Assembly (NCBI GenBank): GCA_009698815.1
Contig: WLPJ01000003.1
Coordinates: forward strand, 1-64,000
Source of the DNA: Actinomycetota bacterium
Lineage (GTDB): Bacteria > Actinomycetota > Actinomycetes > Nanopelagicales > Nanopelagicaceae
Length of the DNA: 64,000 nucleotides
Reading direction: 5' to 3'
Below are positions 1,278-12,770 of this stretch, piece after piece (the stretch's first letter is position 1; each line of letters starts with the position of its first letter). The notes below the pieces were generated by a model, which was not told where the DNA came from, did not search any database, and saw only the letters and a list, made by a program, of their open reading frames with translations. The position numbers and the translations under genes are program-made.

Positions 1278-2459
1278 CTAGAAATACTTGCGGAAGATCT
1301 TCCTAAAGCGCTTAGTTATGCGCTTATTAAGCTTTAAGGTCTGATCAATTGGGGAAACCGCCATCAATTTAGTATGAGACGGTTCATCTGGAGTAATCAC
1401 ATCCTTAAGTGCGGGCGAGTTTTGATCAAGTGAATCTGCAATCCGATCAATGTTGGCAACCATGGAAAGCCCACGAACGATCTGCTCTTGATCAGCATCC
1501 TTAGCATCTTCGATTAGTGATTCCGCCAGTGCCGCACCGGCTTCGCGCGCATCATCTGTGGCTGTCGTCGTCGTTTCAAAATCTTCATCATCATCGAATT
1601 TTGAGGTAATTGCATAACTTGCAGCCGATAGCGCAACCGCGATCTGCTTCTTTGTTGAATCCGCGATGCCACCACTTACTGCAGAGTCAAAGAGCGTACG
1701 TGCAATTGTGCGCACCTGAACGAGCGTATGTTCAATAGCAATACCTTGAATATAAACTTCTTCTGCTTCATCTTTTTCTGCAGTCGGAAACCATCTGGCA
1801 TGGCCGCGGGCTTCAACGGATTGGGCACGGATTGAAGGAACTGATTCCATTAGCAACCGCGCCTTGGCTAGCCAATTACCCGCTTCTTTCTGGGTATATC
1901 CAGCAGCCACACCTTCAGACATCTTCGCTAATAATTCGGCTGCCTTAGCGCTGACATCAGTAATTTGATCAATCGCTCGGCCAACTGGAGTATTTGCATG
2001 TGAGAAATAGGAAAAGATAATTGCTATTGCGGCACCAATTAAAGTCGATCCCAAGCGGTGAGTAGCAGTTGTTCCACTAATTCCTGGGCCAATAACAATC
2101 AAAGCGGTGACCGGAACATTTACCGATGCGACTTCACCAAGATGAAGTGCTCGTGCCACAACAGCACAGAAAATAACGGTAAGGCCGACAGCGATAAATC
2201 CAAAATCAAAGATAGAAACATTTAACAGGGCGACAGATGCGCCGATTGCGGTTCCGACTATCTGACCAAAGCCCTCACGAACTGATTTATGCAAAGAGAT
2301 GCGGATAGATAAGGTACAAACGATTGCGGCGACGACGCCACCATCCTCAATAACTAGGTCGCCTACCTGCCAAGAAACAGCACCGGCTAAACCAGCCACC
2401 AAGATTTGGCGAACCCAAACGCGACGATCGGCAAATAACTTTTTTATTTTCTTCCACAT
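1278..2459 (-). CDS. FUSC / aromatic acid exporter family membrane protein
   Basis: A 393-residue protein with a hydrophobic N-terminal half (about residues 14-155, several membrane segments) and a soluble, acidic, helical C-terminal half. The segment VVAAIVCTLSIRISLHKSVREGFGQIVGTAIGA is split here only as a description: the short core SVREGFGQIVGTAIGA is typical of the FUSC/ArAE superfamily, whose members are thought to export aromatic acids or similar toxic metabolites. A basic C-terminal tail ends the protein. It begins 13 bases after the RuBisCO-like gene stops, so it may be the last gene of that operon and might remove a dead-end intermediate; that link is inference. Substrate unknown. 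Confidence 0.75.
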   Translation of the reverse strand: MWKKIKKLFADRRVWVRQILVAGLAGAVSWQVGDLVIEDGGVVAAIVCTLSIRISLHKSVREGFGQIVGTAIGASVALLNVSIFDFGFIAVGLTVIFCAVVARALHLGEVASVNVPVTALIVIGPGISGTTATHRLGSTLIGAAIAIIFSYFSHANTPVGRAIDQITDVSAKAAELLAKMSEGVAAGYTQKEAGNWLAKARLLMESVPSIRAQSVEARGHARWFPTAEKDEAEEVYIQGIAIEHTLVQVRTIARTLFDSAVSGGIADSTKKQIAVALSAASYAITSKFDDDEDFETTTTATDDAREAGAALAESLIEDAKDADQEQIVRGLSMVANIDRIADSLDQNSPALKDVITPDEPSHTKLMAVSPIDQTLKLNKRITKRFRKIFRKYF

Positions 2460-2472
2460 GGTGTGGTTAAGT

Positions 2473-3570
2473 TTAGTAGGTATGCACTATTTCGCTCATT
2501 CGAGCCGCGTTATCCGCAAGGTTTCCACGAGAAAGTGCTCCGCCGATTAAAAGGGCTGTGTCCTTTCCATACATTTCAATCAACTCGGGAATTCGCTCGA
2601 GCGTCATTCCGCCGGCAGGTGCAATCAGGATTGAATTAAGGTTTCCAAGTTTTTCGCGAGATTTATCGGCAATATCTAAACATTGCTCTTCGCTAAATGA
2701 GAACCGTCCACCAATATTCGGGAAAATCGAAATATCGGCTCCAGCTAAGCGCATCAAAGTTCCAAAAACTATGCCATGTGCAATTCCTTCATGCTTGGAT
2801 GTAACGAGTGAACCCAACATCGTGGGATGACCCAAGATAGGTAGCGATAGCGAATCATCCGCTGCGATTACTCGCATGGAATCAAATCCCGTAATACCTG
2901 GAAGAACAAGAAGCCCACTGGCTCCCAGTTCCTGAGCGGTATGGGCGCCATCGATCATCTGATCAAAAGGCATATTTAAGCTAGGTACATATGCAGCGTT
3001 TGCACCTGTAATTGAATTCGCTTCTGCAACGGCGCGCGAAATAAAAGTGACTCGCTCTTTCCATGTCGCCCATGGCTGGTTAGCCAGACTGTGATCGTCT
3101 TTTATTAAATCAAATCCTGCCAAGGCTAAAGTGCGGGCCATGTCAGCCAAAGTTTTTGCATCTGAGCCCATTGGTTTTAGTGCCGTTGCAATTAGCGGAC
3201 GTGACTGAGCGCTAAATATTTTTCGTAATCCGTTAATTCCAAAGCGGGGTCCTTTGAACTTTTCCAAAATTGTAGAAGGAAGTTTGAGATCAACTATTTT
3301 CACGCCAGGAAATAGCGAGACATTTCCCCACAACACATTTAACAATTGTGTTAACTCTGCTCCAGCAACATCAGGGTTGTAAGAAATAGTAATTAAGTGA
3401 GTGGTTTTATCGGTCGAAGATATCTCTTCGATTTTTCCAACGACTTCTTCTTGCATCCACTTTGGAGCCAATTCATAAGGAAATTCGATCGTCTGCTCCG
3501 CGCGAATAACGTCAGCGATGGATTTCGGATCCTCGCCAACGTAGGCATAAGTTATATATATTCGTTCCAT
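2473..3570 (-). CDS. RuBisCO-like protein (form IV), non-carboxylating
   Basis: A 365-residue member of the RuBisCO large-subunit superfamily, shorter than true large subunits (about 460). The barrel signature is clear: TALKPMG (129-135) matches the region of RuBisCO Lys175/Lys177, but the second Lys is Met134. IKDDH (156-160) matches the carbamylated-Lys motif KDDE, with Glu204 replaced by His160. ILGHPTML (245-252) supplies the His294 equivalent. LAGADISIFPNIGGRF (275-290) occupies the loop-6 region and lacks the Lys334 motif. It therefore should not fix CO2. Known RLPs act in methylthioribulose-phosphate metabolism or on 3-oxo-isoapionate 4-phosphate (OiaX/OiaT, Carter et al. 2018); I recall the KDDH and SIFPN signatures as closer to the latter group. 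It follows the aldolase/SDR gene by 5 bases in an mtnA operon. Confidence 0.85.
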   Translation of the reverse strand: MERIYITYAYVGEDPKSIADVIRAEQTIEFPYELAPKWMQEEVVGKIEEISSTDKTTHLITISYNPDVAGAELTQLLNVLWGNVSLFPGVKIVDLKLPSTILEKFKGPRFGINGLRKIFSAQSRPLIATALKPMGSDAKTLADMARTLALAGFDLIKDDHSLANQPWATWKERVTFISRAVAEANSITGANAAYVPSLNMPFDQMIDGAHTAQELGASGLLVLPGITGFDSMRVIAADDSLSLPILGHPTMLGSLVTSKHEGIAHGIVFGTLMRLAGADISIFPNIGGRFSFSEEQCLDIADKSREKLGNLNSILIAPAGGMTLERIPELIEMYGKDTALLIGGALSRGNLADNAARMSEIVHTY

Positions 3571-3575
3571 AATCT

Positions 3576-5546
3576 CTACCTTGGAAAAGCTGCCGCTACG
3601 CCGCCATCTACGGCGATAACGCTTCCAGTTGTTCGTGAAGATTCATCACTTAAGAGAAATGCTGCGGCTCGCGCCACATCCAGGCTTCGAACGCGGGCAT
3701 TTAGCAGATTACGTGACGCGTAAAAATCTTCAAGTTCTTCTGGCTTAACTCCATGAGCAGCTGCACGTTGTTCGCGAATACCGCCTTCCCAAAGCTTGCT
3801 GTTATCGAAGACTGCATCAGGATTAATTCCATTGCAGCGAATTCCAGCGTTTCCACCTTCAAGGGCTGCAATACGCATTAACTGCAACATTCCCGCCTTG
3901 CTGACTGAATATCCACCAAAGCCTGCGCCAGGTGCGAAGGCGTTTTTGCTCGCGATATAAACGATCGATCCACCCATTTTCTGCTTACGCATCACCTTCA
4001 TTGATTCTTTAGTCAGCATAAAGGCGCTAGATAGATTTATATCGAGGCCACGTCGCCATTTTTCGATATCTAAATCTTCAAGTTTGTCGCTAATTCCAAT
4101 TCCAGCGTTAATTACAACGCCATCAAGGCCGCCAAAGTGTTTGATTGTTTTTGTGACAGTAGCCTGAACATCAGATTCCTTTGATTGATCGCCCAAAACA
4201 AGTAGCGGTGGATTGCATTTGTTTTCTGCAAATTCTTTTTCAACTTCAATTAACCCGGCTTCTTCAATATCTGCTAGCACCAAATGAGCACCACGCTTGG
4301 CAAGTTCAAGTGCCACGCCTCTGCCGATTCCACTTCCTGCTCCTGTAACGATAATGATGTGACCATCTAGTTGTGCTGGGGCAGGTTTATTCTTTAATTT
4401 AAATAACTCCATCGGCCAATAATCAAAGCCAAATATTTCGGCATCAGAAATAGTGTCGCCATCACCGAATGCATCAACAACTCGAGCTGCAACCGCGTGG
4501 GTATGTGATGCGATGTCGGCCAACATTGTGTTCTCTTTAATTGTGGTTGCAGCTGTTACCGCACCGACTCCAGGAACAATAATGACTCGAGGATCATTAC
4601 CGTGGCTCGTATAGCCTGCTGGAAGAAGTGATTTATTGGCCTCAAAATATGCACTGTAATTCTCGCGAAATTCTTCGATCCCGGTTTCAGTATCTTCCAA
4701 AGTAACGGTTGCTGACTTTGGACGGATACGCAACATGTGATCCGCACTTGATGCACCAAGAGCCAGAATCTTCTTAAGATCTGGGCGAGCTGCTATTTCT
4801 GCTAATCGAGTATCGGTTCGCAGTAATTGTTTCTTTCCGAGAGTTCCGCGCAATTTGAGTAGCAACTCCTTGAGTTCTTCATCAGGCAAATCCTGGTGCT
4901 GGAAATTAGCCTCAGGCCGCTTATTAAGTGAATCCAAATATTTATTGGCTAGCGCTACCGTGTCTAAAGTTTTTTGGTAACAGCGATCTGAATCTTCATC
5001 CCAAACAACCAATCCGTGATGTGCCAGAACTACTCCTGCATAATCGCCCAAGCCGCCAACAATCTTTGAGAGATTAAAACTGGGACGAATCCAATCGACG
5101 TAGGCAAATTCTTCACCCAGTGCTTCGCGAACCGCCTTTTCCCCCTGCGCATGATTGGTTAGTGCACAGATTGCATCCGCGTGCACGTGATCAATATGTT
5201 TTGCAGGCAAAAATCCATGTAAGAGCGTTTCAATTGATGGCCTACGTGAAGTTGGATCAACAAGTGCGCGGGTCACATAATCAACCATGGTGTCATCATC
5301 TAGCACATCTAAATCGCGCAGCGCTAACAACTCATCGAGATACAAAGCCGGGTAATCACGATCTATTGCGTACTGCATATCCGCACCAGAACCTTTAACC
5401 CACAAGACTTTCTTAAGTCGGCCTAAGTGATCCTTGATTTCACCTTTACTTGAAGTGTTACCTCCACCGTAAACAACCATAGATTGATCGGCGCCTATCT
5501 TCTGGGAACGTGCGACGAGATCATGTAACGGCTTGAATTCACTCAT
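3576..5546 (-). CDS. bifunctional class II aldolase / short-chain dehydrogenase fusion
   Basis: A 656-residue fusion. Residues 1 to about 385 form a class II (zinc) aldolase: HVHAD around 120-124 and AHHGL at 175-179 give the three metal histidines. Residues about 393-656 form an SDR dehydrogenase with TGAGSGIG (401-408), NAG (480-482) and YSVSK (546-550). The layout and C-terminal VDGGVAAAFPR resemble the RhaEW/YuxG type, in which L-rhamnulose 1-phosphate is cleaved to DHAP plus L-lactaldehyde and the aldehyde is oxidised by the attached domain. Next to mtnA it more likely cleaves a 5-deoxy- or 5-methylthio-ribulose 1-phosphate, with the SDR domain treating the released aldehyde; this substrate is inferred. 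The ATG overlaps the mtnA stop as ATGA. Confidence 0.88.
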   Translation of the reverse strand: MSEFKPLHDLVARSQKIGADQSMVVYGGGNTSSKGEIKDHLGRLKKVLWVKGSGADMQYAIDRDYPALYLDELLALRDLDVLDDDTMVDYVTRALVDPTSRRPSIETLLHGFLPAKHIDHVHADAICALTNHAQGEKAVREALGEEFAYVDWIRPSFNLSKIVGGLGDYAGVVLAHHGLVVWDEDSDRCYQKTLDTVALANKYLDSLNKRPEANFQHQDLPDEELKELLLKLRGTLGKKQLLRTDTRLAEIAARPDLKKILALGASSADHMLRIRPKSATVTLEDTETGIEEFRENYSAYFEANKSLLPAGYTSHGNDPRVIIVPGVGAVTAATTIKENTMLADIASHTHAVAARVVDAFGDGDTISDAEIFGFDYWPMELFKLKNKPAPAQLDGHIIIVTGAGSGIGRGVALELAKRGAHLVLADIEEAGLIEVEKEFAENKCNPPLLVLGDQSKESDVQATVTKTIKHFGGLDGVVINAGIGISDKLEDLDIEKWRRGLDINLSSAFMLTKESMKVMRKQKMGGSIVYIASKNAFAPGAGFGGYSVSKAGMLQLMRIAALEGGNAGIRCNGINPDAVFDNSKLWEGGIREQRAAAHGVKPEELEDFYASRNLLNARVRSLDVARAAAFLLSDESSRTTGSVIAVDGGVAAAFPR

Positions 5547-6556
5547 AATGTTTGACCCTCTGCTATTTCGTAGGATTGATTCTCGGTGATTACAGCACTT
5601 ATATATTTAGCTGGGGTAACATCAAATGCCGGATTGAAAGTTTTAGCGCCAAGCGGTGCTACCTGAATACCCTTGAAATAAGTTAGCTCTTCATCCGCTC
5701 TTATTTCGATATGAATATCAGATCCACTCGAAATTGTGCGATCAACCGTTGATTCTGGAGCCACCACCAAGAAGGGAATTCCAGCTTCGTGACAAGCCAG
5801 TGCAACACTTAGCGATCCGATTTTGTTGGCAGAATCACCGTTTTTTGCAATGCGGTCGGCCCCAATAAGGGCTGCATCAATGCGTCCACTCAATATCGCC
5901 ATCGCAGCAGCGCCATCAGGTTCAATGCGATAAGGAATTTCAGATTTCATTAACTCCCACGCAGTCAACCGAGAACCTTGGAGCAACGGGCGTGTTTCAT
6001 CTGCATAAACTTCTTTAACGTATCCACGCTTGTGCAATTCTTTTATAACGCCAAGAGCAGTGCCTGTTCCAGTTGTTGCAAGTGAACCAGTATTGCAATG
6101 TGTTAATAAAGTTAATGAATTATTGCCAAGTTTTTTAATCAACCAATCAGCACCAATATTTCCCATGCTGATGCTTGATTCTTTATCTTCACGTGCTAAT
6201 TGATGCGCTGCGGCAAGTACAGCATCCCTGCCAGCCGGTAAGTGTTTGCGAATTTTTTCAACAGCCCATGCCAAATTAACCGCAGTAGGTCTGGCATCAC
6301 GCAGCAAATCAATATTGAGTTCTAGCTCTTGAGCGCTTAAACCTTTGCGCTTAGCTTCATCTATTGCCAGGACCACGCCGTAAGCACCAGCAACACCTAA
6401 CGCCGGGGCTCCCCGAACGACTAGTTGTTGAATAGCAAGAACAAGAGGAGATATCTCATCATAGGAAATGTAGTTTTCGGAGATAGGAATTTGAGTCTGA
6501 TCTAGTAAAACGATCTTCTCGTTCTGCCAAGTAATAGCCTCAATGGCGCTGGACAT
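5543..6556 (-). CDS. mtnA: S-methyl-5-thioribose-1-phosphate isomerase (MtnA family)
   Basis: A 337-residue MtnA, normal length for the family. It turns an aldose 1-phosphate (methylthioribose 1-phosphate, or 5-deoxyribose 1-phosphate in the related DHAP shunt) into the ketose 1-phosphate. Visible signatures are RGAPALG (48-54), THCNTG with catalytic Cys154, DETRPLLQGSRLTAWEL near 186-202, GADR with catalytic Asp234, and FDVTPAKYI near 311-319. AAGGAGA lies just upstream of the ATG. It heads the mtnA-aldolase/SDR-RLP unit, 52 bases after the ABC transporter. No methylthioribose kinase or MTA phosphorylase is in the window, so the source of its substrate is not shown. Confidence 0.9.
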   Translation of the reverse strand: MSSAIEAITWQNEKIVLLDQTQIPISENYISYDEISPLVLAIQQLVVRGAPALGVAGAYGVVLAIDEAKRKGLSAQELELNIDLLRDARPTAVNLAWAVEKIRKHLPAGRDAVLAAAHQLAREDKESSISMGNIGADWLIKKLGNNSLTLLTHCNTGSLATTGTGTALGVIKELHKRGYVKEVYADETRPLLQGSRLTAWELMKSEIPYRIEPDGAAAMAILSGRIDAALIGADRIAKNGDSANKIGSLSVALACHEAGIPFLVVAPESTVDRTISSGSDIHIEIRADEELTYFKGIQVAPLGAKTFNPAFDVTPAKYISAVITENQSYEIAEGQTL

Positions 6557-6608: not shown

Positions 6609-7355
6609 TTACAGCCGTCCTGCCTGATGCACTCGCTTGAGAAACTCTTGGGTTTTTAGATTAGTTGGATTTTTCAGTACCTGCTCTGCGCTTCCGCGTT
6701 CGAGAATATTTCCTGATTCTAGGAAACAGACTTCATCGGCTACTTGAGTTGCAAATCCCATCTCGTGAGTCGCAAGCACCATGGTCATACCATCTTGTTT
6801 CAAATCACGAACGATGCTGAGAACTTCATTTACTAGTACCGGATCAAGAGCAGAGGTAATCTCATCTAAAAGAAGCAGACGTGGGTTTATGGCAAGTGAG
6901 CGAATTATTGCAACTCTCTGTTGTTGACCACCGCTTAGTCGATCTGGATATTGATCTGATTTATCTGCCAAATCAAAACGTGACAAAAGTTTTGTGGCTA
7001 TTTCACGCGCCTCATCCGCACTCTTATTCTGAACTTTTATTGGTGCAAGGGTGATGTTCTCTAAAACTGTCTTATGTGGAAAGAGATTAAATGATTGAAA
7101 GACCATTCCTAATTTACGTCGTACATCATCTACCTGTATTGATGGATCAGTTATCTCTTGTCCATCCAATAAAATTTGTCCGTCATCAATCGTCTCTAAT
7201 AAGTTGATGCAACGCAGCAGCGTTGATTTTCCAGATCCTGAAGCGCCAATTAATACTGTGGCAGTGTGCTCAGGAACTTGTAAGGAGAGATTATTTAAGA
7301 CAACTTCCGTGCCAAAAGCTTTGCGAACGCTCTGTAACTCCAGGACGTTTGCCAT
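6609..7355 (-). CDS. polar amino acid ABC transporter ATP-binding protein
   Basis: A 248-residue ABC ATPase of the GlnQ/HisP type. Walker A GASGSGKST (37-45), the Q loop MVFQSFNLFPH (84-94), signature LSGGQQQR (140-147) and Walker B LLLLDE (160-165) are intact. It powers import by the membrane protein encoded just upstream; the permease stop and this ATG overlap by one base. Family knowledge suggests an amino acid or opine substrate. Because the gene sits between apiose-like oxidation genes and mtnA, a sugar-derived or sulfur-containing ligand is possible, but nothing in the ATPase itself indicates that. Confidence 0.93.
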   Translation of the reverse strand: MANVLELQSVRKAFGTEVVLNNLSLQVPEHTATVLIGASGSGKSTLLRCINLLETIDDGQILLDGQEITDPSIQVDDVRRKLGMVFQSFNLFPHKTVLENITLAPIKVQNKSADEAREIATKLLSRFDLADKSDQYPDRLSGGQQQRVAIIRSLAINPRLLLLDEITSALDPVLVNEVLSIVRDLKQDGMTMVLATHEMGFATQVADEVCFLESGNILERGSAEQVLKNPTNLKTQEFLKRVHQAGRL

Positions 7356-8221
7356 TAAATCGCCCCTTCCGAGTTCTGCGCTTGAGTACGCTGTCTAATT
7401 GCGCGATCGGTGTAACGAGTCATAGGAATTGTTATAAGCAAAAATAGAATTGCGGCTACAACATATGGTGTGTAATTAAAGGTACGGCTGGCATTTATTT
7501 GTGCCGCACGAACTGCATCGGTCACACCCAGAATTGAAACCAAACCGGTATCTTTCAAAAGAGATACAAAGTCATTTAAAAGTGGTGGGACAACACGGCG
7601 GAGCGCCTGTGGCAGAACCACGAATCGCATTGTCTGGCCGGAAGTTAACCCGAGAGATCTAGCGGCAGCTCTTTGGCTGGGATGTATTGAGAGAATTCCT
7701 GAACGAATAACTTCGGCGACATATGCTGAATAAGTAAGCACAACCGCAATTGTGCCAAGCACAATTACATTGCTGGAAATACCTTGAAGTCGCAGGGCTG
7801 GAACACCAAAGCCAACTAACAAGATAATCAGGATTAGCGGAGCGCCACGGAAGATATCTACGTATGCAGTTGCTAAAAATCTAAATGGCGTAAGAGCTGG
7901 AGATTTGGTCGTTCGCAGCAGCGCCAGACCCATTGCGATAATACCGATTGCGATGCCACCAAAAAATGTTAACTGCAGGTTTATCCAAAGACCTTTTACA
8001 ACTGTTGGAAATACTTCTTTTCCGTATTCAATATCAAAGAAAGTTGCTTTTACGACTTCCCAACCTGGGGAGGTAATCAAAACAACAGCAAGTGAGCCCA
8101 GAACAAATACTGATGAGACTGCGGCAATGATCGCTTGCTTACGGCTTAACTTACGGCGAAGTGCGCGACGTTCTAATTCGCGTGAGCTTGGCGACCAAGC
8201 AGAGTTATTTCTCTCTGACAT
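7355..8221 (-). CDS. polar amino acid ABC transporter permease
   Basis: An inner-membrane permease of the HisM/GlnP type, about 288 residues. A basic cytoplasmic N terminus is followed by a hydrophobic anchor, then a periplasmic stretch and the five-helix core. The ATPase-contact (EAA) loop is visible as RAAARSLGLTSGQTMRF. Two starts are possible: TTG at 8230 or ATG at 8221. I chose the ATG, which loses only three residues. Only one permease gene is present, so it probably works as a homodimer. It lies between the binding-protein gene (44 bases upstream) and the ATPase gene. Confidence 0.9.
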   Translation of the reverse strand: MSERNNSAWSPSSRELERRALRRKLSRKQAIIAAVSSVFVLGSLAVVLITSPGWEVVKATFFDIEYGKEVFPTVVKGLWINLQLTFFGGIAIGIIAMGLALLRTTKSPALTPFRFLATAYVDIFRGAPLILIILLVGFGVPALRLQGISSNVIVLGTIAVVLTYSAYVAEVIRSGILSIHPSQRAAARSLGLTSGQTMRFVVLPQALRRVVPPLLNDFVSLLKDTGLVSILGVTDAVRAAQINASRTFNYTPYVVAAILFLLITIPMTRYTDRAIRQRTQAQNSEGAI

Positions 8222-8265
8222 GGCCGCCAAACTACCGCGTTTATCTACTATTTTTCTTAATTTAC

Positions 8266-9111
8266 TTATGGCTTCAATACTGGAGCGCCTGCATCAGTGG
8301 CGAGCCACTTATCAGTAATCGCAGCCAATGTGCCATCTGAAGTTATTGCATCAACAGCGCCAGAAACACATGTTGTGATCTTGCTGCCCTTTGAAAGCAA
8401 GAGACCAAATTGATCGCCTGCACCAGTTGATGGAAGCTGACCAACAATTAAGCCATCTGTTACTTCGACTCCTGAAAGATAGAAGGCAGTAGGTAGGTCA
8501 ACAACTAGACCATCAATCTGACCATTCTTTAGTGCAGTGACAGCAGCAGCGTTGTCATTAAATACCTGTGGCTTTATGCCAATTTGGTTTTCAATTGCAT
8601 CAAGTGATGTTGTGCCAACTGCCGCACCGAGCTTTGCGTTCTTAAGGTCTGCGATAGATGTCTTTCCGGCGATCTTGCTGCCTTTGTAAGAAACGATCGC
8701 TTGTGGAGCTGTGTAATAAGGTGATGAGAAATCAACTGCAGTCTTTCTCTCATCTGTGATTGAAAATTGTTGCAAGTTGAAGTCGAAGTTCTTTTCTCCA
8801 GGTGTTACAGCGCCATCAAATGTCGTACGAACCCAGACAACCTCATCGTTTGAGAATCCAAGTTGCTTAGCAACTGCATAAGCAACTGCTCCTTCAAAGC
8901 CTTCACCTGATTCTGGTTTGTCATCAATAATCCATGGATAGTACGCAGGCTCGCCAGTTGCGATTGTTAGCTTGCCATCTGTAACTGTTGCAAGATCAGC
9001 CTTCTCGCATGAGGCAGATGCAACTTCAGTTGAATCTGATTTTGAACATGCAGTTAATCCAAATGCCAGAGCAAGTGATACTGCGAATATAAGTGACTTC
9101 TTTTTCTGCAC
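8266..9111 (-). CDS. ABC transporter substrate-binding lipoprotein (SBP family 3)
   Basis: A secreted binding protein that delivers ligand to the adjacent permease. I place the start at GTG 9111, not the longer TTG at 9138: GTG is preceded by AAGGGAG at good distance and gives a proper lipoprotein signal peptide, KKK followed by a hydrophobic stretch and the lipobox LTAC. The mature part has the family 3 pattern (LTIATGEPAYYPW, FDFNLQQFSITDERK, VDFSSPYY, GAAVGTT), as in binding proteins for polar amino acids. The conserved Arg of DERK normally binds the ligand carboxylate, so an acidic sugar derivative is conceivable. The ligand is unknown. Confidence 0.9.
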   Translation of the reverse strand: MQKKKSLIFAVSLALAFGLTACSKSDSTEVASASCEKADLATVTDGKLTIATGEPAYYPWIIDDKPESGEGFEGAVAYAVAKQLGFSNDEVVWVRTTFDGAVTPGEKNFDFNLQQFSITDERKTAVDFSSPYYTAPQAIVSYKGSKIAGKTSIADLKNAKLGAAVGTTSLDAIENQIGIKPQVFNDNAAAVTALKNGQIDGLVVDLPTAFYLSGVEVTDGLIVGQLPSTGAGDQFGLLLSKGSKITTCVSGAVDAITSDGTLAAITDKWLATDAGAPVLKP

Positions 9112-9194
9112 GTTGTCTCCCTTTCGTGGAGTTAGCAATACTCGTAAAGGCTAATAAAGGCAGACCCTGGTGTCTACTTGCGAAGGTTTTGCGT

Positions 9195-9980
9195 TTAAGC
9201 GTAAGAGTCCCAGTCTCCGCCGCTCAAAATGCCGCCGTCTATCACAATGGACTGCCCGGTGATGTAAGAAGAGGCATCGGTTGCCAAGAAAATAACTGAA
9301 CCAATTATTTCATCAGGATTTGAGAGGCGACCAATTGGAGTGGTCTCATCAAACCATTTTGAGCGATGTGGCTCGCCCCAAAGCGATTTGGTGAAATCTG
9401 TCTTAATTACTGAGGGCTCGATGCAATTCACTCGAATCTTATCCTTCGCCCATTCACGAGCAGTACTGCGAGTTATCGAAGATACCGCCGCCTTAGTGGC
9501 TGCATATACAGAGATGGTGTTAAAGCTATAACGGGCGCTGAGTGAACTCATATTTACGATTGCTCCGCCACCGGCAGCTTTCATAATTGGGTGTGCTGCT
9601 TGGGAAATAAAATATATTGCTTTCATGTTTACGGAGACAATTGCATCAAAGTCATCTTCAGTAACTTCAGAAATAGGTTTGCGACGATTAATCCCAGCGG
9701 TGTTAATTACTATGTCGAGGCCGCCCATAAGTTGATTAGCCTCTGAAACTACTCTGGCACATTCAGCCGGGTCAGATAAATCTGCCGCTATTGAAAAAGC
9801 TTTACCTGATTGAGTTGTGATCGCCTTTCGCACTTCATCAAGTCGTTCCTGATTAAGATCTTGAATTGTTACATCTGCTCCTCGTTCGGCGAAAGCTTTC
9901 GAAATCAGCGTTCCGAGTGATCCAGCACCACCAGTGATAAGAGTGCGTTTGCCCTGCAAAGAAAATAACGGATCAAACAT
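9195..9980 (-). CDS. SDR family oxidoreductase (gluconate 5-dehydrogenase-like)
   Basis: A 261-residue classical short-chain dehydrogenase. The cofactor motif is TGGAGSLG (16-23), NTAG lies near 91-94, and the catalytic Ser and YAATK follow in the middle of the protein; the C terminus has GQSIVIDGG. Such enzymes oxidise or reduce a sugar acid or polyol hydroxyl with NAD(P). The start is ATG 9980 with AAGGAG nearby, 10 bases after the putative lactonase gene. In context it would act next on the acid made by the lactonase, perhaps D-apionate or a similar aldonate; that is inference. The known D-apionate oxidoisomerase (ApnO) is from a different family and is absent here. Confidence 0.85.
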   Translation of the reverse strand: MFDPLFSLQGKRTLITGGAGSLGTLISKAFAERGADVTIQDLNQERLDEVRKAITTQSGKAFSIAADLSDPAECARVVSEANQLMGGLDIVINTAGINRRKPISEVTEDDFDAIVSVNMKAIYFISQAAHPIMKAAGGGAIVNMSSLSARYSFNTISVYAATKAAVSSITRSTAREWAKDKIRVNCIEPSVIKTDFTKSLWGEPHRSKWFDETTPIGRLSNPDEIIGSVIFLATDASSYITGQSIVIDGGILSGGDWDSYA

Positions 9981-9990
9981 TTACGACTCC

Positions 9991-11730
9991 TTATATATCC
10001 AAATAAGTGGTACTCGTGGGTGGAAGTACTACTGGAGTTAATCCTATTCCTTCAAAATAAACCTGCTGTGTTTCGCTACTAAAATTGGCCAAAATTAACC
10101 GAGTTGTTTCAGAATTCCTGAGAATCAACGAATCAACTACTTCTGGAGCACTAGAAGAAGATTTCCTGCAGATTGAAAAACCTTTGAGCGCTGCAAATAA
10201 ATTCCATACGGGGAATGCTTCGCCAGATTCGCTTGGGAAATTTACCGAATCCTTACTTCCTGATTTACTTTCTCTTATCCCCCGCCAGCCAACACTCTCA
10301 AAGTAAGTCGCCGAATTGATGGAGTTGGATTGCGCTAAATACTTAATTGAGATTGCAGTCCAAGCTTCGTTAAACCAAGTTCTCTGGCGGCTATCTACCG
10401 AAGCTGGCAGCGCAGTGTTGCTGACATCCTTATCGGGCTGCGTTGCATTTGGGTTGAATCTGGGACGGAGTGTGATTGGTCCAACGCTAACTCCCTTTGA
10501 ACCTGCAATTCGTGCAGCATTTAGAGCGATTACTTCTTGCGTTGCCAAATTCTGAATTAACGTTCGATCATCAAAGGAATGGACCTGGGGATTTAGTGAA
10601 AAGTTAATCTGATCAATGCCTGGTACAACTGCTGAACCTCTATTTATCTCAGTGAAATACAGATCAGTTCCAGCAGAAATTATCTGCTGTGGACCTAACA
10701 ACTCACGAGCCGCGGCAACAAATTCGGCGGGTGTTACCTTATGAGTCTTTGAAAATATCAACAAATTTCTGACTAGCGCTGTTAACTCTTCATGGCTGTG
10801 AAGAAACTCTGTAATTTGATTTACTGACGTTGCTTTTAGAGCTAGATCAAGTTTTAGCCCTAATTTTTTAGATAATTTCACCGCGCCAGTAAAATTTGCT
10901 TTTGATGCTTCATCTAGATCTAAATTAAGCCTCAGGTGACCAATTCCAATTTCGTTAAACTCATCATGATCACTCTCAGAGTATTCTTCAGCAATATTTA
11001 GCCCAATGTCGGGCAGGCTAGCTTCTGAGTCAGAAACACTTATGGTGACTTTGCTCTGCGTCAGTTTTTGCACCTTGGATGCCTGGCCGCTTAAAGAGAT
11101 AGTGAACTCTTGCTCTATCTGATCGCCTTTAGAGACTTTAACCGGAAATGGGAGTTCAATCGGGGTGCAGTAGGTTTTGTAGGAAGCATCACTCCAGTTA
11201 CGGTGATCTTCCGTTTCGAAAACCTCTCCTTTGAATTTAACTTCAAGAGTTTGTCCATTATTTAAAGTGTGCGATATCCCCGAGAGATTCTTAAATGGTT
11301 GGCTAGGAGAGATATCATTTGGAAACTCTGAAATTATTTTTGTTCCACCAGAAAGTATTAATTTACAAGATTTTCCAGCCAAGTTTGCAATTGGATGCAG
11401 CAGACAAAGGCCAAGTCGGTTTCGCATAAAATCAGCGGTAGACGAGCCACTGAACCCATACTTTATCTCTCCTGCCGAACTGCCGACTATTTGTAATTTT
11501 GCGTGAAAGTTTTCAGCATCGTTGCTCCCACGAAGTTCAAGATCAGCAGAGAAGTGATCATCTGCAACATTCCATTTTTCTTCCAAGATTTCAAATGGTC
11601 GAGAGGTCCAATTGATATCTTGAAAGACCAGATAGATCCTACGTATTGCTTCTTCTTCACCCAACCGAATATTCCACAAACTTCCATCTGAATATTCCAG
11701 AGTTAATGGACCAGCGATTAGTTTCTTCAT
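9991..11730 (-). CDS. apnL: probable D-apionate lactonase-like protein
   Basis: A 579-residue protein with no signal peptide. I recognise the N-terminal pattern (AGPLTLEY about 6-13, RIYLVFQDINW about 31-41, NRLGLCLLHP 104-113, HRNWSDASYKTYCTP 176-190) as that of the large family that includes D-apionate lactonase, which opens D-apionolactone to D-apionate. This is from memory, not a search. An older annotation would call it hypothetical or glycosidase-like; the later part resembles a barrel. Support comes from the next gene upstream, 5 bases away, which looks like D-apiose dehydrogenase, the enzyme that makes the lactone. AT-rich codon use is slightly stronger than in neighbours. Confidence 0.62.
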   Translation of the reverse strand: MKKLIAGPLTLEYSDGSLWNIRLGEEEAIRRIYLVFQDINWTSRPFEILEEKWNVADDHFSADLELRGSNDAENFHAKLQIVGSSAGEIKYGFSGSSTADFMRNRLGLCLLHPIANLAGKSCKLILSGGTKIISEFPNDISPSQPFKNLSGISHTLNNGQTLEVKFKGEVFETEDHRNWSDASYKTYCTPIELPFPVKVSKGDQIEQEFTISLSGQASKVQKLTQSKVTISVSDSEASLPDIGLNIAEEYSESDHDEFNEIGIGHLRLNLDLDEASKANFTGAVKLSKKLGLKLDLALKATSVNQITEFLHSHEELTALVRNLLIFSKTHKVTPAEFVAAARELLGPQQIISAGTDLYFTEINRGSAVVPGIDQINFSLNPQVHSFDDRTLIQNLATQEVIALNAARIAGSKGVSVGPITLRPRFNPNATQPDKDVSNTALPASVDSRQRTWFNEAWTAISIKYLAQSNSINSATYFESVGWRGIRESKSGSKDSVNFPSESGEAFPVWNLFAALKGFSICRKSSSSAPEVVDSLILRNSETTRLILANFSSETQQVYFEGIGLTPVVLPPTSTTYLDI

Positions 11731-11735
11731 AACTT

Positions 11736-12770
11736 CTATTTAAGTAGAGAGCCGACAATGAATACTTGGCCACTTTTAATTGATTCGTATGCACCTAAAG
11801 TTATATCTAGTAATTTGAGAGTATCTTCACCACTTGTTTCAGGCGTCTTGGCATTTCTTATACAATCAACCCAATGTTTATTTACGTTAACGACGCTGTC
11901 CTGTATTCCATTCCAAGGTTCTGATGTCCAGCCATGATCTGGAATCTCAATAACTTCATTGGTAACTGAAGTGCCAGAAACGACTTGCAAGTGGTAATCG
12001 GCAGAGAGTGTGATTGCACCTTTTGTACCTTCAATAATCACAAAGGTTTGTGGGTATGTGCTGTGATCAGACCTTGTTTCATAACTCGCATCAACGATGC
12101 ATGTGGCATCTTCCATATGCATAAGAATTGTCGCTGAGTCTTCGCCCTTAATAATTGGATTTACTCGATGAGCAGAAGTAAAAATTGTGTTTGGTTCGCC
12201 AATAAAATATCTTGCTAAATCAAATAGATGAACTGCCACATCTACGATAATCATTCGCTCGCTCTCGACCAGCCAAGACTGAGCTGAATAAACATCATGT
12301 GCGGTGCGAAAGCAGATCCGTCCAAAGAATGGTCGGCCAATTGCACCGCTATCGATAATCTCTTTTATCTTGCGCATGGGAGTTTGAAAACGAAAGTTCT
12401 CGTGCACCATGAAGGGCAAGTTCTTATCTGACATAGCCTTAACCATTGCTTTGGCATCTGCCATTTCCCACGCCAGTGGCTTCTGACAGATTGCTGCGAC
12501 GCCATTCTTTGCCGCAAGTTCAACCATCATCTTGTGAGTTGGCGGCGTTGTAGCGATATCTACAAAGTCTAATTTTTCATTTGCAAATAACTCTTCAGCG
12601 CTGGAATAAGCCGTACCGCCAAAAGTGGCAGCTGCTGCTTTAGCCTTTTCAAAATCAACATCGCAAGTTGCAACTAGTTCAACATCCGGGTTTTGACTCC
12701 ATGCATGCAAATGGTTTTGAGCAAAGAAGCCACAACCGATTAGCGCATATCTAAATTTTTGCTGAGTCAC
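11736..12770 (-). CDS. apsD: Gfo/Idh/MocA oxidoreductase, probable D-apiose dehydrogenase
   Basis: A 344-residue NAD(P)-dependent sugar dehydrogenase. The Rossmann turn is GCGFFA (12-17), the substrate Lys lies in QKP (96-98, normally EKP), and the C-terminal domain carries D177-x3-H181-x2-D184. The stretch VHENFRFQTPMR (122-133) and the ending with ETSGED match my memory of D-apiose dehydrogenase, which oxidises the branched pentose D-apiose to D-apionolactone. Other sugars, such as inositols or hexoses, are possible for the superfamily. It overlaps the sulfurtransferase stop codon by ATGA and is followed 5 bases later by the lactonase-like gene, a natural dehydrogenase-lactonase pair. Confidence 0.7.
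   Translation of the reverse strand: MTQQKFRYALIGCGFFAQNHLHAWSQNPDVELVATCDVDFEKAKAAAATFGGTAYSSAEELFANEKLDFVDIATTPPTHKMMVELAAKNGVAAICQKPLAWEMADAKAMVKAMSDKNLPFMVHENFRFQTPMRKIKEIIDSGAIGRPFFGRICFRTAHDVYSAQSWLVESERMIIVDVAVHLFDLARYFIGEPNTIFTSAHRVNPIIKGEDSATILMHMEDATCIVDASYETRSDHSTYPQTFVIIEGTKGAITLSADYHLQVVSGTSVTNEVIEIPDHGWTSEPWNGIQDSVVNVNKHWVDCIRNAKTPETSGEDTLKLLDITLGAYESIKSGQVFIVGSLLK

Follow-up and report, generated by a model that had tools for sequence, protein, structure and literature searches.

The window analysed here, a stretch of 64,000 nucleotides from a member of the Nanopelagicaceae (Actinomycetota), encodes a RuBisCO-like protein (RLP) of 365 amino acids, whose open reading frame starts with ATG and spans exactly positions 2473-3570 of the minus strand. 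Its match to Pfam RuBisCO_large (77.4 bits versus a cut-off of 30.1) places the protein in the RuBisCO large-chain superfamily and bears out the superfamily fold assigned in the preliminary description of this DNA. The RLP gene lies third in a compact series with the order mtnA, aldolase/dehydrogenase, RLP and FUSC-type protein:

1278..2459, minus strand: membrane protein similar to FUSC/aromatic-acid exporters; follows the RLP gene and has a putative role in the pathway
2473..3570, minus strand: RLP, predicted 5-methylthioribulose-1-phosphate 1,3-isomerase of the DeepYkr type, assigned by fold, clade, the motifs KDDH and PNxGGRF and the best PDB match (3qfw)
3576..5546, minus strand: bifunctional class II aldolase/short-chain dehydrogenase (Pfam Aldolase_II and SDR)
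5543..6556, minus strand: mtnA, methylthioribose-1-phosphate isomerase (TIGR00512, 387.8 bits versus a cut-off of 279)

mtnA and the aldolase/dehydrogenase gene overlap by 4 bases, 5 bases separate the latter from the RLP, and the FUSC-type gene, which is conserved beside the RLP in L001-L010 and immediately after it in Planktophila relatives, follows after a further 13 bases. The aldolase/dehydrogenase fusion, which is kept beside mtnA in relatives, scores below cut-off against the RhaD-like and PRK08324 models and is predicted to function as a methylthioribulose-1-P (or 5-deoxyribulose-1-P) aldolase plus aldehyde oxidoreductase in a dihydroxyacetone phosphate (DHAP) shunt branch. A polar amino-acid type ABC transporter (6609-9138) is located immediately upstream of mtnA, as in L002, L004, L005 and L007. 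In addition, an apionate-like block of short-chain dehydrogenase, ApnL-like (below cut-off) and Gfo/Idh genes (9195-12770) was identified, which precedes mtnA in identical order in L007 and L008. The RLP is present as a single copy in the genome. Compared with its orthologues it has a dN/dS of approximately 0.03-0.09 (with saturated dS) and is therefore neither a chance open reading frame nor a dead gene.

Active site and phylogenetic placement of the RLP

The active site was compared in an alignment of 45 RLPs, with invariance counted over the 30 members of the clade to which the RLP of the window belongs. The preliminary description had correctly placed Lys132, Met134, Lys157, Asp159, His160, His248 and the loop SIFPNIGGRF. 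It had also equated Met134 with Lys177 of RuBisCO; the position of Met134 holds, but the equivalence is better replaced by a one-residue deletion next to it, as the Lys177 region (KP-MG) is one residue shorter than the KPNVG/KPSVG of OiaX-type proteins. This shortening is common to the whole clade (KP-MG, KP-QG in 3qfw, KP-VG). The reported lack of a loop-6 lysine was confirmed, with Arg289 (GGRF) occupying the column of the OiaX lysine (NKF); like Lys132, Lys157, Asp159 and His248, this arginine is invariant in all 30 clade members. The carbamylation motif of the clade is KDDH, replaced by KEDH or KEDD in two distant rows, and its loop-6 sequence is PNxGGRF apart from a few variants, whereas in the same alignment OiaX-type proteins (L027, L028, 3nwr, L054) retain KDDE together with the loop-6 lysine, and MtnW and Photo RLPs also carry KDDE. 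KDDH and PNxGGRF are clade-wide marks and no peculiarity of this RLP. A true RuBisCO was rejected on account of His160 in place of Glu204, the deletion at Lys177 and Arg289 at the loop-6 column.

The closest PDB entry by profile (E 2e-112) carries the title 'Rubisco-like protein from Rhodopseudomonas palustris' (3qfw). The predicted structure of the RLP (mean pLDDT 92, pTM 0.91, from a 24-row alignment) also has 3qfw as its first PDB match (TM 0.87-0.93, 36% identity). As R. palustris has two RLPs, of which 2qyg is RLP2, 3qfw should by elimination be RLP1. In a tree of the 45 RLPs, of the kind proposed in the preliminary description, a single clade (support 99/97) unites the RLP of the window with 3qfw, with L026, a cupin-linked RLP from Terrarubrum, and with RLPs of Actinobacteria, Firmicutes, Rhizobiaceae and Vibrio. 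MtnW (100/100), OiaX-type proteins (100/99) and the Photo RLP lie outside this clade. The isomerase anchors of this clade are 3qfw and L026, with the R. rubrum RLP sequence not among the rows; the branching order within the clade is not firm and some terminal branches are long.

R. palustris RLP1 (RPA2169) and the RLP of Rhodospirillum rubrum (Rru_A1998) convert 5-methylthioribulose-1-phosphate (MTRu-1P) to 1-methylthio-xylulose-5-P and 1-methylthio-ribulose-5-P, with kcat values of 1.3 and 1.2 per s, respectively (PMC5893883). The RLP of the window resembles both in clade, KDDH, KP-xG, PNxGGRF and fold, and appears to be an ordinary member of this characterised but uncommon DeepYkr type. Since His160 at the place of Glu204 and the lost lysines are borne by a characterised isomerase clade, they require no new chemistry per se. 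The preliminary description had read KDDH as pointing to apionate-type RLPs and had seen a conflict with the neighbouring mtnA. The motif instead points to R. rubrum/R. palustris-type isomerases, and the conflict therefore disappears. The methylthioribulose-phosphate chemistry suggested by mtnA finds support in the clade, the operon and the remaining pathway genes; a clade of known activity matching the adjacent genes, which that description had named as a refuting outcome, was largely found as far as mtnA is concerned.

Two other members of the superfamily were considered. MtnW, the DK-MTP-1P enolase of the YkrW clade, is the next-best PDB match and the best NCBIfam match of the RLP, but was rejected as its identity, given a TIGR03332 score of 153.9 bits versus a cut-off of 513.6, the separate clade of MtnW, the lack of KDDE and the lack of MtnD in the genome. 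The RLP could also act in apionate breakdown as a decarboxylase or transcarboxylase similar to OiaX (3-oxo-isoapionate-4-phosphate decarboxylase) or OiaT, tied to the ApnL-like protein (NF049900, E 1e-72) and the Gfo/Idh oxidoreductase encoded several genes (5-9 kb) upstream. We reject this reading, the least probable of all and with only a slight chance of being correct: in addition to its separate clade, its KDDH motif and the missing loop-6 lysine, the RLP scores only 75.8 bits against the OiaX model NF042437 (cut-off 700), the DUF1537 four-carbon acid sugar kinase (PF07005), which is present beside OiaX-type L027 and L028, is absent from the genome of the window, and the apionate-like genes are absent beside the RLP in L002, L003, L004 and L005.

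Genomic context of a proposed methylthioadenosine-isoprenoid shunt

The genome of the window (1.35 Mb, 22 contigs, 92% complete) encodes further putative components of the pathway. In R. rubrum, the RLP is followed by the cupin Rru_A2000, an MTXu-5P sulfurylase, and O-acetylhomoserine sulfhydrylase takes up the methanethiol released (PMC4958253). A cupin with Rru_A2000 (3jzv) as its best PDB match (E 2e-41) is encoded outside the RLP operon on a separate contig (L089:10013-10474, corresponding to C11:10013-10474), divergent from an O-acetylhomoserine sulfhydrylase scoring above the TIGR01326 cut-off. This divergent pair is also present in the three relatives examined (L090, L091, L092), and close orthologues of this sulfhydrylase (at least 78% identity) were found only in cupin-bearing genomes. 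Furthermore, a methylthioinosine phosphorylase (above the NF006599 cut-off) on contig C19 adjoins a deaminase-like amidohydrolase, which also matches a 5'-deoxyadenosine deaminase model, and an ABC transporter of the sugar/nucleoside type. Classical methionine salvage looks incomplete because MtnD (PF03079) was not found in this 92% complete genome.

We therefore propose, with a probability of about 0.8, that the RLP is a DeepYkr-type MTRu-1P 1,3-isomerase in the methylthioadenosine (MTA)-isoprenoid shunt of this freshwater actinobacterium, which resembles Candidatus Planktophila. Clade, operon and the presence of partner genes are observed, and the catalytic steps are modelled on characterised homologues. 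MTA would be deaminated and phosphorolysed by the products of the C19 genes to methylthioribose-1-P, which MtnA would isomerise to MTRu-1P. The RLP would then shift the carbonyl along the chain and yield 1-methylthio-xylulose-5-P; protons would be transferred by way of enediolates bound at the metal site with Lys157/Asp159. From 1-methylthio-xylulose-5-P the cupin would release methanethiol and 1-deoxyxylulose-5-phosphate (DXP). Methanethiol could subsequently be converted to methionine by the divergent O-acetylhomoserine sulfhydrylase, so that each step from MTA to methionine has a candidate gene in the genome. The aldolase/dehydrogenase would draw on the same MTRu-1P for the formation of DHAP.

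R. palustris operates the MTA-isoprenoid and DHAP branches simultaneously (PMC5893883). It has both at separate loci, whereas the operon of the window would carry both exits. Like the R. rubrum/R. palustris shunt, the genome of the window contains mtnA, a cupin and O-acetylhomoserine sulfhydrylase; it differs in the low identity of its RLP (36%), the methylthioinosine type of its phosphorylase, the unlinked cupin and the aldolase-dehydrogenase fusion as operon partner of the RLP. Its host belongs to the Actinobacteria, a group missing from those listed in PMC5893883. As in the DHAP shunt (MtnP or MtnN/MtnK, MtnA and Ald2), a class II aldolase gene comes after mtnA; in contrast to that shunt, the aldolase forms a fusion with a short-chain dehydrogenase and shares its operon with the RLP.

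Co-occurrence within the family and split transketolases of relatives

Among 151 genomes of the family, 24 encode the RLP and 127 do not. The cupin was identified in 13 of the RLP-positive genomes and in none of the RLP-negative ones (Fisher 1e-12, uncorrected for relatedness). An RLP-type split transketolase (at least 75% identity) was likewise confined to RLP-positive genomes (15/24 versus 0/127; Fisher 7e-15, again uncorrected for relatedness); three additional matches with 41-42% identity represent another transketolase and were not counted. All 24 RLP-positive genomes carry one or both of these genes (nine the cupin only, four both and eleven the transketolase only), and the aldolase-dehydrogenase is present in 21 of them compared with 6 of the 127 others. 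The genome of the window is one of the nine with the cupin only, as is the fragmented G130, the near-twin of which (G142) carries the transketolase. On the RLP tree, the alternation of cupin and transketolase amounts to 2-3 independent contrasts, too few switches for statistical power. A divergent RLP sublineage (L051-L053 from G046, G035 and G023) encodes the RLP divergent from the cupin, in an order unlike that of the window.

Within the genus of the window, all five RLP-positive genomes encode the cupin and none of the RLP-negative genomes does. Together with the low dN/dS and the retention of all clade-invariant residues, this makes it very improbable that the RLP is a relic of a pathway lost with the neighbouring transketolase and kinase, leaving only the MtnA-aldolase DHAP shunt in use, even though Planktophila relatives without the transketolase show lower conservation of the RLP (77-83%) than of its neighbours, the aldolase-dehydrogenase (95-96%) and MtnA (87-88%).

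The substrate of the RLP could, additionally or instead, be 5-deoxyribulose-1-phosphate. This compound derives from 5'-deoxyadenosine, a by-product of radical-SAM enzymes, and its 1,3-isomerisation would chemically yield DXP directly, without the need for a cupin. MtnA, MtnK and Ald2 accept methylthio and deoxy substrates alike (PMC10986504), and the match of the C19 amidohydrolase to a 5'-deoxyadenosine deaminase model is consistent with such a route. We nevertheless regard the deoxy sugar as unlikely to be the main substrate: the cupin, which is required only for the methylthio product, occurs in 13 RLP-positive genomes, that of the window among them, and in no RLP-negative genome, and the activity of characterised clade members was determined with MTRu-1P. 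A shortage of DXP was rejected as the reason for the RLP, as dxs is present and there is no evident DXP need.

The closest relatives of the RLP within the family seem to use a transketolase in place of the usual next enzyme. Clusters with a split transketolase beside the RLP (L003, L006, L011-L015, L021-L025, L055) occur in several phyla, with the transketolase directly upstream of clade RLPs in L003:8068-10001, L022:6062-8001 from Pararhizobium, L012-L015, L025 and L055. Rhizobiaceae plasmids encode a sugar ABC transporter, mtnK, mtnA, the N and C parts of the transketolase and the RLP, and Clostridium oryzae and Lachnospiraceae share this gene order. The Ponticoccus alexandrii plasmid (L055, 611-9134) contains genes for nucleoside phosphorylase, amidohydrolase, mtnA, molybdopterin oxidoreductase, the transketolase pair and the RLP, while that of Vibrio nigripulchritudo (L025, 6010-10629) combines the transketolase pair with an RLP carrying KEDD and an FGGY kinase, lacks mtnA and mtnK and probably acts on another sugar substrate. 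The N part of the transketolase retains the thiamine-diphosphate motif (SDGE for GDGE) and has a tyrosine (GGYLSQ) where the ordinary transketolase and DXS of the genome have histidine (GHxG). These clusters share the RLP clade with the window and often contain mtnK-mtnA, but the genome of the window lacks an RLP-type split transketolase; its best match (34%; L020, C22:22040-23787) was rejected as a generic split transketolase.

As cupin and transketolase, two unrelated enzymes, are each confined to RLP-positive genomes and apparently interchangeable, both may act on one RLP product, which suggests a transketolase branch of the pathway in relatives that has so far not been described; no transketolase tied to this RLP type was found in our literature search, which left most subscription papers out of reach. 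Tentatively, and at slightly less than even odds, we propose that the split transketolase replaces the cupin as a second exit from 1-methylthio-xylulose-5-P or DXP and that the lineage of the window switched to the cupin. Standing in for the cupin in Actinobacteria, Rhizobiaceae, Firmicutes and other relatives, this thiamine diphosphate enzyme would cleave the C2-C3 bond to yield glyceraldehyde-3-P and a two-carbon unit, and its thiamine adduct may eliminate methanethiol, akin to phosphoketolase-type chemistry. As a counterpoint to the isomerase reading, the RLP shares only 36% identity with its nearest solved member, and its lineage may have been tied to a different downstream step, because its nearest relatives are linked to the split transketolase and not to the cupin.

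Implications for freshwater Actinobacteria

The MTRu-1P 1,3-isomerase itself is already known from Rhodospirillum and Rhodopseudomonas; its RLP type is, as far as the literature searched shows, new for freshwater Actinobacteria, and the search retrieved no biochemistry on actinobacterial members of the clade. The apparent puzzle of the active site is dissolved by the clade-wide marks, and the comparison brings to light a transketolase that accompanies this RLP instead of the cupin, which gives a specific starting point in the search for a new salvage step. Carbon fixation by the RLP is unlikely; most likely, the sulfur of methylthioadenosine is recycled instead. If the proposed function is correct, an oxygen-independent salvage of sulfur and carbon known from purple bacteria and a few others would also operate in acI Actinobacteria, which are among the most abundant freshwater bacteria and have streamlined genomes, a trait that lends relevance to such recycling.
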